Source: a virus
Length of the DNA: 59,596 nt
IMG/VR virus record: IMGVR_UViG_3300021962_000117
Coordinates: 1 to 59,596 of that record
Strand: one strand, 5' to 3'
In this document: positions 9,324 to 38,236 of the stretch, one piece after another
Position numbering within the stretch: the first letter of the stretch is position 1
Layout: the number at the start of each line of letters is the position of its first letter
Translations under genes and position numbers: made by a program
Notes under the pieces: generated by a model
The model's input: the letters and a program-made list of their open reading frames with translations, nothing else
What the model was told of the DNA's origin: nothing
Databases searched by the model: none

Positions 9324-9703
9324 CAATCCCTAATTTCAAATCCCAACCAGATTGGGAAGAGTTTACTAGCATGTTTGATGCACGGTGGCACTGTAAGAAA
9401 GCATTGCTAGATCGTGTGAAGGATGATATGTTTCCTGGCACATCATGGCACGGATTAACATCAGGTCACATGGAAGTCATCAACGACATCGTACAATCTC
9501 TTCTGTATGATGTAGAGTACACATTCAAAGATAAGTACCCAGAATACAAGAATGAGGATGATGAGATGTTCATCCCACGTCGTTCTTTCAAAGAGGATGT
9601 AACAGAAGCACTTAAAGATGCTCTAGGAACTGGTGGACAACAATTGGCAGAATGTCCTCCCTGTGAACCATGCGAACCTTGTGATCTATTCTCCCCAGAA
9701 TAA
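9320..9703 (+). CDS. Hypothetical protein with Cys-rich tail
   Basis: 127 residues. The body is a helical soluble domain; the C-terminus carries CPPCEPCEPC, four Cys in ten residues. That could bind zinc or an iron-sulfur cluster, or form redox-active disulfides. The next ORF downstream is a glutaredoxin-like protein, so a thiol-redox link is possible but unproven. Not recognised as a family. Confidence 0.7.
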   Translation: MTIPNFKSQPDWEEFTSMFDARWHCKKALLDRVKDDMFPGTSWHGLTSGHMEVINDIVQSLLYDVEYTFKDKYPEYKNEDDEMFIPRRSFKEDVTEALKDALGTGGQQLAECPPCEPCEPCDLFSPE

Positions 9704-9786
9704 TGTATCAGAGTAAATATAGTGTGGTCCATAAAGATGGATCTGAAACCGAATATAAATGGTCCCAAACTAGAAGAAGGTTTATT

Positions 9787-10026
9787 ATGTCACAGACAAC
9801 AGTAATTTATTCTAATGGTAGCCAAGAATGCGAGCGGATGGCAATGCTCCTTGAATCTCTTGGTGGAGAATTTCATGAGTATCTACTGGGAGTAGATTTT
9901 AGTGATCGTCAATTCCGTGCTGAGTTTGGACCTGAAGCAACGTATCCACAATGTTCTATTGGATCAAAACATATTGGAAATATGAAAGAAACACTTCAAT
10001 TTCTAAAAGAGAAAGGACTTTTCTAA
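9787..10026 (+). CDS. Degenerate glutaredoxin paralogue
   Basis: 79 residues aligning along their length with the glutaredoxin at 3813-4058: TTVIYSN, GVDFSDRQFRAEFG, the cis-Pro loop TYPQ, then IGNMKETLQFLKEKG. The active site is altered: where that protein has CPYC this one has SQEC, so the nucleophilic first Cys is lost and only the second remains. It may be a redox-inactive or regulatory relative. AGAAGAAGG seven bases before the ATG of MSQTTV supports this start; the frame is open back to an ATG at 9703 that overlaps the previous stop, so a 28-residue N-terminal extension cannot be excluded. Confidence 0.82.
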   Translation: MSQTTVIYSNGSQECERMAMLLESLGGEFHEYLLGVDFSDRQFRAEFGPEATYPQCSIGSKHIGNMKETLQFLKEKGLF

Positions 10027-10046
10027 AACTGTATCATATTATACAA

Positions 10047-10076
10047 TTGACAACGTATAGATAGTAATGGTATAAT
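10047..10076 (+). promoter_or_regulatory. Sigma-70-type promoter
   Basis: TTGACA and TATAAT are separated by 18 bases. Transcription would start near 10081-10083, so the RNA begins exactly with the GCGUUCAUCC half-element and the ORF starts only about ten bases later. This is a host-polymerase (early) promoter. Confidence 0.85.
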
Positions 10077-10083
10077 AACCATG

Positions 10084-10332
10084 CGTTCATCCTATGACTA
10101 AAGCACTCTTGCTTTTAGCATGGGTTCCACTTTTTTCTGTTTCGACGCCACGACTTATTCAAAATCCATATCCTGTGACTATAAGTTGTGACGCAGCGTG
10201 GGAACTGATGGACATCGTTAAAAACGACGATGTAGTAAATCAAAGAAGAGAAGACCGATTGCTATTGGAACTCCGAAAGGATGTAGTTCAAAGGTGCTAA
10301 AATTAAATAGGACGCAAGTAAGTCGCGGAACG
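10084..10332 (+). promoter_or_regulatory. Split glutamine-riboswitch-like element A enclosing an ORF
   Basis: The 5' half CGTTCATCCTAT (10084-10095) and the 3' half ATAGGACGCAAGTAAGTCGC plus GGAACG (10307-10332) can pair: CGTTC with GAACG, and TCCTAT with ATAGGA. The sequences CGTTCATCC, GGACG(C/G)AAGTA and GGAACG are those I recall as the conserved parts of the cyanobacterial glutamine riboswitches (glnA and downstream-peptide motifs). Here the two halves are about 210 bases apart, with a short gene between them. Confidence 0.55.
10094..10300 (+). CDS. Small exported protein inside riboswitch-like element A
   Basis: 68 residues with an N-terminal signal-like helix (MTKALLLLAWVPLFSVS), then a short domain with CDAAWELMDIVKNDDVV and a terminal Cys, so probably one disulfide after export. 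The start codon has no visible ribosome site and lies at the end of the 5' half-element, about ten bases from the predicted transcript start. The next ORF resembles it (signal, Cys, WEL motif near a second Cys). Such short exported proteins recur in cyanophages; function unknown. Confidence 0.7.
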   Translation: MTKALLLLAWVPLFSVSTPRLIQNPYPVTISCDAAWELMDIVKNDDVVNQRREDRLLLELRKDVVQRC

Positions 10333-10335
10333 GAG

Positions 10336-10533
10336 CGTTCATCCCAATGTTTTCAACAATTTTAATTTATGCAACATTGACTTGTTCTCAAGCCAATGCT
10401 CTGATCAATAAAGCCCAAAAGAACGAAAGTATTTCTGAACCTATTAGAAATGAAATAGTTCAAACTATTAAAGAATCTGCTTCAGATTCTTGTTGGGAGT
10501 TGAAAAATAGGGACGCAAACGACTGAAGGAACG
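10336..10533 (+). promoter_or_regulatory. Split glutamine-riboswitch-like element B enclosing an ORF
   Basis: The 5' half CGTTCATCCC (10336-10345) directly follows the 3' half of element A. The 3' half (10510-10533) contains GGGACGCAA and GAAGGAACG, the latter being the conserved tail of the glnA-type aptamer. CGTTC pairs with GAACG and TCCC with GGGA. The enclosed ORF has its stop inside the 3' half. The junction 10310-10345 can instead fold locally, with GAACG and CGTTC around a GAG loop, which is a circularly permuted version of the same motif just before the next ATG. Confidence 0.5.
10347..10526 (+). CDS. Small exported protein inside riboswitch-like element B
   Basis: 59 residues: a signal-like start (MFSTILIYATLTCSQANA, with an A-N-A type cleavage site), then a charged helix and SDSCWELKNRDAND at the end. 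Cys and WEL features are shared with the preceding small exported protein. No ribosome site is visible; the ATG follows the CGTTCATCCC half-element by one base. The stop codon is embedded in the 3' half-element. Function unknown. Confidence 0.68.
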   Translation: MFSTILIYATLTCSQANALINKAQKNESISEPIRNEIVQTIKESASDSCWELKNRDAND

Positions 10534-10568
10534 GGAATTAACATTCTCATTTCTTTAGGAGAACAACC

Positions 10569-10736
10569 ATGAACACACTTCAACTGATTAAAGAGCAGCT
10601 TCAAAAAGCAAATGCTCTTCATGATGCTCAGATCTATCACACCACATACCGTGGTTGTGAGTTTAGAGTAGGCAGTCATGAACCAAAGGAGACACACGGT
10701 ACATTTCAGTATCGCGGACATACTTACAGTAAATAA
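10569..10736 (+). CDS. Small DUF4278-like protein (YRG repeats)
   Basis: 55 residues with a helical start and two YRG motifs (TYRGCEF and QYRGHTYSK) spaced as in DUF4278, a family of short cyanobacterial proteins of unknown function. A clear ribosome site (TAGGAG) lies upstream and a strong terminator directly downstream. It is probably a host-acquired gene. The DUF assignment is from memory of the motif spacing. Confidence 0.72.
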   Translation: MNTLQLIKEQLQKANALHDAQIYHTTYRGCEFRVGSHEPKETHGTFQYRGHTYSK

Positions 10737-10738
10737 AC

Positions 10739-10762
10739 AAAAGGACCTACGGGTCCTTTTTT
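10739..10762 (+). terminator. Rho-independent terminator
   Basis: Perfect 9-bp stem AAAAGGACC / GGTCCTTTT with loop TACG, then further T. It ends the promoter-riboswitch-small-ORF unit that begins at 10047. Confidence 0.92.
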
Positions 10763-10807
10763 GTGTCTAGGTATAAACTAGTAGGCATTAATATTTGTTA
10801 AGGATTG

Positions 10808-10836
10808 CTGACAAATCATATACATAGTGATAGAAT
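10808..10836 (+). promoter_or_regulatory. Sigma-70-type promoter
   Basis: CTGACA and TAGAAT are separated by exactly 17 bases, about 70 bases before the next gene. It rules out the upstream ATG at 10827 as that gene's start. Confidence 0.6.
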
Positions 10837-10904
10837 TAAAGGGTGAGAAAAGTGTACTGAAAATCGATCTACATTATGGTCAAATAATTATCGTGGAGGT
10901 TATT

Positions 10905-11087
10905 ATGCATAATCTTATTTCACATAATCAGCTAGCTGGCTGGAGACAAAGCGTTACACGATTAGATAAAACATTAGATAGGAGCATCGAAGAATCTGAT
11001 ATTCTTAATGATTATTACAATTGTTTAATTGAATGCGACGATGATCAAACGTCTTGTAAGCGAATTTGCAGGAGGATTTTGCAATAG
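10905..11087 (+). CDS. Small Cys-containing protein, unknown
   Basis: 60 residues starting MHNLISHNQLAGWRQSVTRL. GTGGAGG six bases upstream decides the start. It is helical, with three Cys near the end (CLIECDDDQTSCKRICRRIL) spaced like a small helical disulfide or metal hairpin. It forms a single-gene transcription unit with its own promoter and terminator, which suggests an early protein. Function unknown. Confidence 0.75.
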   Translation: MHNLISHNQLAGWRQSVTRLDKTLDRSIEESDILNDYYNCLIECDDDQTSCKRICRRILQ

Positions 11088-38152: not shown

Positions 38153-38236
38153 GGGAGCGTGGCGGAAGTGGTAGACGCACCAGACTTAAAATCTGTTGGG
38201 AGTATTCCCGTGTCGGTTCAAGTCCGACCGTTCCTA
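38153..38236 (+). tRNA. tRNA-Leu (anticodon UAA)
   Basis: 84 bases with acceptor arm GGGAGCG / CGTTCCT (two G-U pairs), a D-arm with GTGGCGGAAGTGGTAGACGC, an anticodon loop CTTAAAA giving UAA, a long class II variable arm (TTGGGAGTATTCCCGTG) and GGTTCAAGTCC in the T-arm. CCA is not encoded. The anticodon reads UUA, a codon favoured in AT-rich phage genes. One C-U mismatch at the top of the anticodon stem. Confidence 0.93.

Follow-up and report, generated by a model that had tools for sequence, protein, structure and literature searches.

Genes and repeated halves at the locus

The window, meaning the whole 59,596-nucleotide stretch of viral DNA that was analysed, contains an operon of three small genes with a sigma-70 promoter on its 5' side and an intrinsic terminator on its 3' side. 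The first two genes lie in the loops of two RNA helices, P2 and P2', which are described below. The features of the operon are as follows.

10047-10076, plus strand: promoter TTGACA-18-TATAAT, with TTGACA from 10047, a spacer of 18 and TATAAT at 10071-10076 (12/12 sigma-70 match)
10094-10300, plus strand: ORF1, 68 aa, from the ORF list, nested in the P2 loop; wider family under purifying selection as judged by dN/dS
10347-10526, plus strand: ORF2, 59 aa, phrog_504 (E 1.3e-14), nested in the P2' loop, with its stop codon TGA in P3/loop E
10557-10561, plus strand: Shine-Dalgarno (SD) sequence AGGAG of the downstream gene, read from the sequence
10569-10736, plus strand: downstream gene, 55 aa, phrog_545 (E 2.2e-28), DUF4278-type (PF14105 E 0.0039, below cut-off)
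10739-10766, plus strand: predicted intrinsic terminator

Two sequence halves recur around the first two genes, at the positions given in a preliminary description of this DNA. The 5' half, CGTTCATCC, has its sole exact copies in the window at 10084-10092 and 10336-10344, and the 3' half, GGACGCAA(N)GGAACG, is found at 10310-10332 and 10511-10533. The 3' pattern gave only these two matches on both window strands and none in 100 shuffles, which rules out chance resemblance. The description had also placed each ORF between two halves. An ORF does start directly after each 5' half (ATG at 10094 and at 10347), and the 3' halves come after or overlap the end of their ORF. The enclosure is incomplete for ORF2, whose stop codon at 10524-10526 is inside the second 3' half, so that ORF2 reads through GGGACGCAAACGAC.

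A further claim, that the promoter sets the transcript start at the first half, agrees with prediction: the TATAAT box ends 7 nt 5' of CGTTC, and transcription is predicted to start at approximately 10083-10084, on the first strand of the RNA. Among the relatives described below, 381 upstream regions were examined, and a -10-like hexamer ends 7 or 8 nt 5' of CGTTCA in 259 of the 354 that have one. An inverted repeat, ATGGT-ATAATA-ACCAT, spans the -10 box of the window (10067-10082) and recurs in relatives as AGGTCTAT-A-ATAGACCT and as other sequences; arms of at least 6 are present in 223/381 upstream regions vs 24 in shuffled ones, the sequence varying while the symmetry is kept. Could this repeat be an operator? 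Directly 5' of the promoter lies a thioredoxin/glutaredoxin-like gene (9703-10026; phrog_22, E 1.1e-16). Elsewhere in the window, a tRNA gene with a long variable arm occupies 38153-38236 (Rfam tRNA, 51.7 bits), and we read it as leucine-type from its anticodon region.

Pairing across units in cyanophage relatives

Comparison with 486 complete relatives shows that the two window units form one nested RNA and not two self-closing aptamers. Outer helix P1 joins the 5' end of the transcript, in unit 1, to the 3' terminus of unit 2, and the inner hairpin P1' consists of the unit-1 3' half paired with the unit-2 5' half. Helix P3, common to both junctions, forms between the two 3' halves, and P2 and P2' are hairpins whose loop is either compact or a whole gene. 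The elements of this fold in the window, together with an alternative hairpin, are listed here.

10084-10088, plus strand: outer P1, 5' strand CGTTC, pairing with 10529-10533; covariation CGTTC:GGAACG / CGTTT:GAAACG
10090-10095, plus strand: P2, 5' strand TCCTAT, pairing with 10307-10312; contains the A and U of the ORF1 AUG; compensatory changes
10307-10312, plus strand: P2, 3' strand ATAGGA, pairing with TCCTAT
10313-10320, plus strand: outer junction CGCA and loop-E 5' strand AGTA (10317-10320), loop E being named after the passages on it in PMC6698751
C10315:G10534, plus strand: outer long-range pair X:Y, with covariation
10321-10325, plus strand: P3, 5' strand AGTCG, pairing with 10520-10524; covariation
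10328-10340, plus strand: inner hairpin P1', GAACG-GAG-CGTTC, a circularly permuted P1; GAACG:CGTTC becomes CAACG:CGTTG in variants
10332-10335, plus strand: SD sequence GGAG of ORF2, in the P1' loop; linker type tracks the gene in unit 2
10342-10345, plus strand: P2', 5' strand TCCC, directly 5' of the ORF2 AUG; pairing with compensatory changes
10510-10513, plus strand: P2', 3' strand GGGA, by pairing
10514-10517, plus strand: inner junction CGCA, whose C10516 pairs with G10333 (X':Y'); covariation
10520-10527, plus strand: P3, 3' strand CGACT, and loop-E 3' strand GAA (10525-10527); P3 covariation
10529-10534, plus strand: outer P1, 3' strand GAACG, and Y (G10534); P1 and X:Y covariation
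10523-10558, plus strand: anti-SD sequestor hairpin formed by CTGAAGGAA (from 10523) and TTTCTTTAG (to 10558), incompatible with outer P1/P3

A distant blastn search with the locus returned 413 phage records, every one with the name Synechococcus phage, Cyanophage or Prochlorococcus phage. In Bellamy, two compact hairpins stand in place of the window genes; in S-MbCM7, Syn1 and ACG-2014g the first hairpin is compact and the second holds a gene, and Sf-CH1b has genes in both. Eight viral scans were run, seven by DNA pattern (six with at least 120 stretches each and one with 1) and the eighth by protein. The 486 complete arrays divide into compact/gene (199), gene/gene (177), compact/compact (58) and gene/compact (52), and because the scans worked by pattern these class frequencies are not population frequencies. 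Three of the DNA-pattern scans picked loci by the P2 3' strand and never by its 5' strand, and the P1-variant scan picked them by the unit-1 3' half and never by the unit-2 5' half. Sequences cut by a contig end or left unparsed were dropped (540 parsed and 486 complete in the P1 set; 444 parsed and 392 complete in an earlier set), and L044, a near copy of the window, was excluded from array counts. The relatives are related by descent, and the shuffle and Fisher tests ignore this kinship.

Loci picked by protein alone also carry the RNA. Eighty loci were selected by the downstream protein, 69 of them with at least 700 nt upstream, and the standard unit-2 3' half (at most one mismatch) is upstream in 68 of these 69. 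The remaining locus, L614, has a diverged double array (~1290-1450) before the same gene, its first hairpin being long and its second one different. A homologue of the ORF2 protein occurs in 306 of 50,697 phage records. From the 60 matches listed of these 306 records 11 isolates were taken, all of which (11/11) have the unit-2 3' half; 10 also have the inner hairpin, P-RSM1 with one mismatch to the pattern. The arrangement looks common in marine cyanophages, since every one of the 11 isolates examined has at least the 3' half of the RNA. The eleventh isolate, Sf-CH5, carries an annotated homing endonuclease gene in the P1' loop (L772:117-689), and similar inserts start at the same P1' place in L669, L687 and L734.

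A host origin was considered and rejected: a genome-contig scan gave 6 matches, and the flanks examined resemble cyanophage sequence. Four RNA-bearing contigs (L562-L565), filed as Rhodospirillaceae, Nonlabens and a Euryarchaeota MAG, have a cyanophage-like sequence; we read them as mis-binned into those genomes.

The strands of P1 distinguish nested from self-closing pairing. Among the 486 complete arrays, all five pairs of the inner helix form in 486 and all five of outer P1 in 484. Seventy-nine arrays have changed P1 strands (one, L577, with a different P3 type), and the inner helix keeps 5/5 pairs in 79/79, covarying from GAACG:CGTTC to CAACG:CGTTG. The outer helix is kept in 77, as CGTTC:GGAACG in 69 and by a double-sided change to CGTTT:GAAACG in 8, and a pair is lost in the other 2. 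Self-closing pairing leaves a mismatch in both units in 79/79. A scan for unit-1 3' halves of the form GHAACG (H = not G) found only GCAACG among the matches listed; of the 77 distinct GCAACG sites among those matches, 74 run on into CGTTG in unit 2, and the remaining 3 carry an insert there.

Pairing in P3 crosses the units as well: AGUCG, after the unit-1 loop-E strand AGUA, pairs with CGACU, before the unit-2 GAA. Relatives have AGUCA:UGACU, GGUUAACG:CGUUAAUU, AGCCGACU:AGCCGACU against AGCCGACA:UGCCGACU, and others, making 44 distinct combinations in 519 arrays. On average 4.27 of the first 5 positions are paired vs 3.88 after shuffling (maximum 4.11 in 2000 shuffles), with A.C mismatches at positions 3 and 6 kept in some forms. 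The diverged array of L614 has seven P3 pairs of unrelated sequence, GAGCAUA:UAUGCUC, identified by eye.

According to the passages on both glutamine classes in PMC6698751, a long-range pair ends P1 in each, and we infer that X:Y is that pair. It is intact in all of 44 single aptamers (G:C 38, C:G 6). In 516 double arrays, outer X:Y is C:G in 508, G:C in 4 and C:A in 4 (4 broken), and inner X:Y is C:G in 502, G:C in 6, A:G in 7 and C:A in 1 (8 broken). Ten arrays have switched to G:C at one junction; the nested partner is kept there in 10/10, and both self-closing pairs would be broken in 10/10. One of the ten, L551, has A:G at its other, inner junction.

These patterns bear on a rival reading, in which two ordinary tandem glutamine aptamers, each self-closing and together a pseudo-cooperative doublet, carry a gene in each P2 loop. 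Tandem glutamine riboswitches are known (Weinberg 2010, PMC2864571), the passages on them in PMC9481103 counting 157 doublets and 4 triplets, and Rfam gives 24-38 bits to single units in some relatives. As in those tandems, two copies of the conserved halves lie in one leader; unlike them, the copies here interlock through P1 and P3. The P1 mismatches in both units of all 79 variant arrays and the broken pairs of all 10 X:Y-switched arrays rule out independent tandem aptamers, P3 crosses the units, and the loop-E halves AGUA and GAA are split between them, which leaves the tandem reading highly improbable. The preliminary description had preferred an aptamer around each gene, which the covariation of P1, P3 and X:Y contradicts. 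Its alternative, a circularly permuted fold made of one 3' half and the next 5' half beside the start codon, corresponds to the inner junction and is supported by covariation, and the compensatory changes that it had proposed to seek in related phages were found.

The covariation is phylogenetically correlated, and a small number of events may account for the P1 variants. Folding 4 compact relatives by energy gave outer P1 in some and P3 poorly, with z from -0.69 to -2.66.

Comparison with known RNA classes

Rfam returned no glutamine-family match in the window at the gathering score; with E allowed up to 10, the region 9800-11000 gave none either. This is expected of an element of ~450 nt with genes in its loops, and forms with genes in both loops likewise went undetected. 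In the covariance-model search suggested for this locus, the glnA model (RF01739, cut-off 35) passed in some compact relatives only. Compact forms scored 34.5, 30.4 and 25.8 bits, the first being unit 2 of Bellamy (L003). In L461 the model aligned one aptamer across both units at 35.1 bits, and in L509 (38.4 bits, span from coordinates) and L003 it preferred a single unit. Against RF01704 (cut-off 33) relatives scored 22.8-27.1 bits, with 27.1, 26.4 and 24.3 in compact forms. One further contig, L458, holds a PhotoRC-II RNA (80.1 bits) and a single glnA aptamer of canonical form (53.6 bits).

The outer three-way junction is composed like a glutamine-I (glnA) aptamer. Its core reads CGUUCA-P2-CG(C/G)A-AGUA-P3-GAA-GGAACG, with the CGUUC:GAACG P1 in 484/486 arrays, loop E (AGUA with GAA, or AAA in some relatives) at the base of P3 and the long-range pair at the end of P1, and the RNA stands before DUF4278 genes as glutamine-I does. 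The earlier proposal of a glutamine-riboswitch-like RNA with genes inside it is supported. Unlike glutamine-I, P3 here bears a second junction, which is a circularly permuted and partly degenerate copy of the outer one; the conserved core and X:Y are kept in both, and loop E in the outer one only. A further difference is that the P2 and/or P2' loops hold protein genes, so that the window aptamer spans ~450 nt.

Glutamine-II, the Downstream-peptide RNA (RF01704), has the same CGUUCA, CGCA and GGAACG core and a C:G long-range pair. It precedes small proteins and is an ON switch in Prochlorococcus, as the relevant passages of PMC6316151 and PMC6698751 describe it. Its 3' hairpin around GGAACG is absent here, and the RNA is nested and not a pseudoknot. 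Membership in glutamine-II was rejected: scores fall below the cut-off, the hairpin is lost or has broken pairs, and P3 pairs across units instead.

Group I introns carry ORFs in their peripheral loops and resemble the present RNA in having protein genes in the loops of a structured RNA. They differ in that this RNA is not a ribozyme, start and stop codons join its helix, and the nested genes are not homing endonucleases, except for the one in the P1' loop of some relatives. Natural permuted RNAs treated in passages of PMC10085705 include hammerhead, twister, 5S rRNA and group II introns. They share with our RNA the circular permutation of a known fold; unlike them, ours has a riboswitch-type junction fused by a shared helix to an unpermuted copy. 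The word 'glutamine' is absent from the main text of PMC10085705, and parts of PMC9964418 and PMC9602691 name a glutamine riboswitch as one of the RNAs found in T4-like cyanophages. In the open-licence literature, searched by title and the start of the abstract, we found no description of a gene lying within a riboswitch aptamer, a permuted glutamine aptamer, a P3 or P1 common to two copies, or a natural permuted riboswitch. We know of no earlier natural circularly permuted riboswitch aptamer.

Nested genes and a proposed glutamine switch

P2 of the window, UCCUAU:AUAGGA, takes in two bases of the ORF1 AUG, and the ORF1 stop codon is six bases 5' of its 3' strand. In 239 distinct unit-1 gene loops, P2 position 3 is paired in 97.9% vs 76.1% after shuffling and position 4 in 77.0% vs 60.1%; in 288 distinct unit-2 gene loops, P2' position 4 is paired in 98.3% vs 77.8% and position 5 in 88.5% vs 73.8%. 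Changes mapped on a protein tree of 520 genes number 42 at position 3 of P2, 27 of them double-sided with pairing kept and 3 with pairing lost, and 70 at position 4 (20 double-sided, 19 lost), with weaker covariation at positions 5-7. In P-RSM1 (L777, ~635-665) the closing pair of P2 has gone from U-A to A-U (CGTTCAACCTCC..GGAGGTCGCA), a compensatory change.

The start codon holds a constant place, the AUG falling at the fifth base after CGTTCA in 198/238 unit-1 and 259/287 unit-2 genes. Unit-1 stop codons covary with the bases 5' of the AUG and are complementary to them in 138 of 167 genes (UAA with UU 85, UGA with UC 35, UAG with CU 18); the other 29 mostly have UAG with CA, UU, CC or CG. 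In unit 2, a GGAG-type SD (GAG linker) is present in the P1' loop in 260 of 293 arrays with a gene vs 1 of 116 without (Fisher p 7e-70, kinship ignored).

The nested genes are coding and under purifying selection. Median dN/dS is 0.126 (3,866 pairs) and 0.255 (1,113 pairs), the pairs being non-independent, and among loops with the AUG at the fifth base the length is a multiple of three in 171/198 and 257/259. The last two codons of ORF2, inside the aptamer, are nearly frozen at silent sites (of 249, AAC 220 vs AAT 1 and GAC 246 vs GAT 3), compared with 26% AAC and 21% GAC usage in the body of ORF2; codons GCA and GAC at -3 and -4 were fixed by the search pattern and left out of this evidence. 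Almost all of the 525 ORF1 and ORF2 proteins form one family linked at E<1e-4 (233/238 and 287/287, single linkage), and Pfam has no family above its cut-off for them. Most contain two cysteines around helices, and their hydrophobic N-termini suggest that they are exported. AlphaFold predicts a small helical protein with helices at 2-6, 12-23 and 30-43 (mean pLDDT 78).

Window downstream protein scores 18 bits against PF14105 (cut-off 25.3). Of five downstream proteins from other loci, one passes at 44.2 bits and two reach 25.0, RefSeq names that of S-SSM5 DUF4278, and downstream genes of relatives encode YRG-type proteins. The P3 end and loop E of unit 2, as CUGAAG, CUAAAG or CCGAAG, faces CUUCAG, CUUUAG or CUUUGG at the SD of this gene. 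This anti-SD helix has 6/6 pairs in 344/394 arrays, and 73% of 52 distinct combinations pair vs 58% after shuffling (maximum 67%). In the window the sequestor hairpin has -15.2 kcal/mol and z -4.42, with 0/200 shuffles equally stable; in L768 z is -0.92. The window sequestor also uses the GGAA strand of outer P1, so that sequestor and aptamer are mutually exclusive.

We consider it fairly probable that a nested double-junction RNA of the glutamine-I kind heads this small phage operon and acts as a reciprocal glutamine switch. Glutamine would bind the outer junction and perhaps the permuted inner one, which may not bind because it is without loop E, and binding would close P1, P2, P3, P1' and P2'. 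The closed fold would bury the gene-1 AUG within P2 and, for gene 2, the SD together with the AUG region within P1'/P2'; since these start sites lie in helices, the nested genes would then be off. It would also draw the anti-SD strand (CUGAAG, and in the window GGAA of P1) off the SD of the DUF4278 gene, turning that gene on. With little glutamine the sequestor hairpin would form, the DUF4278 gene would be off, and ribosomes could reach the nested genes, whose translation through the aptamer strands would keep the aptamer open. For the window, the outcome would be two small exported proteins at low glutamine and one DUF4278 protein at high.

Glutamine is the presumed ligand given that the contact nucleotides named in PMC6698751 (C1:G59, C58 and G22, in the passages on binding) are kept. 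The same source, in part, describes a two-piece glutamine-II aptamer that assembles on its ligand, so that glutamine can bridge strands that no short loop connects. Sections of PMC6316151 and PMC6698751 place glutamine riboswitches before DUF4278 genes and state that ligand binding turns expression on, and the downstream gene here would likewise be switched on by glutamine. Counting against the proposal, closing a loop that contains a 160-210 nt gene carries an entropic cost, and translation of gene 1 could begin ahead of the synthesis of the 3' half.

Two other accounts accept the fold and not the reciprocal glutamine switch. The nested RNA may control the DUF4278 gene only, its inner genes being tolerated cargo translated regardless of glutamine. 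The P2 loop does vary freely in length, with 4-nt loops or genes at the same position, and gene loss seems to leave the stem: unit 1 of S-RIM2 (L769, ~623-680) is a short hairpin, flanked by TCTCACAA..ATAGTGAGA as in relatives that bear a gene, and looks like a gene lost with its stem kept. Cargo would not explain the constant AUG placement, the drawing of AUG and stop into P2 with compensatory changes, or an SD in the P1' loop almost only where there is a gene, and we regard this account as rather unlikely. Alternatively, glutamine sensing has been lost and the RNA is a ribosome-controlled switch working by translational coupling, or an mRNA-stability element tying the 5' end to the 3' side. 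ORF2 stops in P3/loop E, ~42 nt before the next AUG, and the predicted 5' end is at outer P1. However, nearly all arrays retain the reported glutamine contacts (again from part of PMC6698751) and X:Y at each of the two junctions, and 58 distinct gene-free arrays keep the fold, which makes a loss of sensing improbable.

Riboswitches are usually taught as leaders before genes, whereas here genes sit within the aptamer. Start and stop codons are part of the helices, and therefore translation and ligand binding would compete for the same bases; with start codons in the helices that close a sensor, one RNA shape could decide which viral proteins get made. The fused permuted double junction is itself an RNA architecture supported by covariation, and Rfam fails to detect it in any form that has a gene in a loop. 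As a more tentative proposal, glutamine would close the helix that holds the start codons of the nested genes (and in many relatives their stop codons), turning nested genes off and the flanking gene on, and permuted and unpermuted aptamers sharing one helix would form a two-site viral sensor that times host nitrogen control. Such a sensor would bear on how phages read and rewire the nitrogen metabolism of their hosts.
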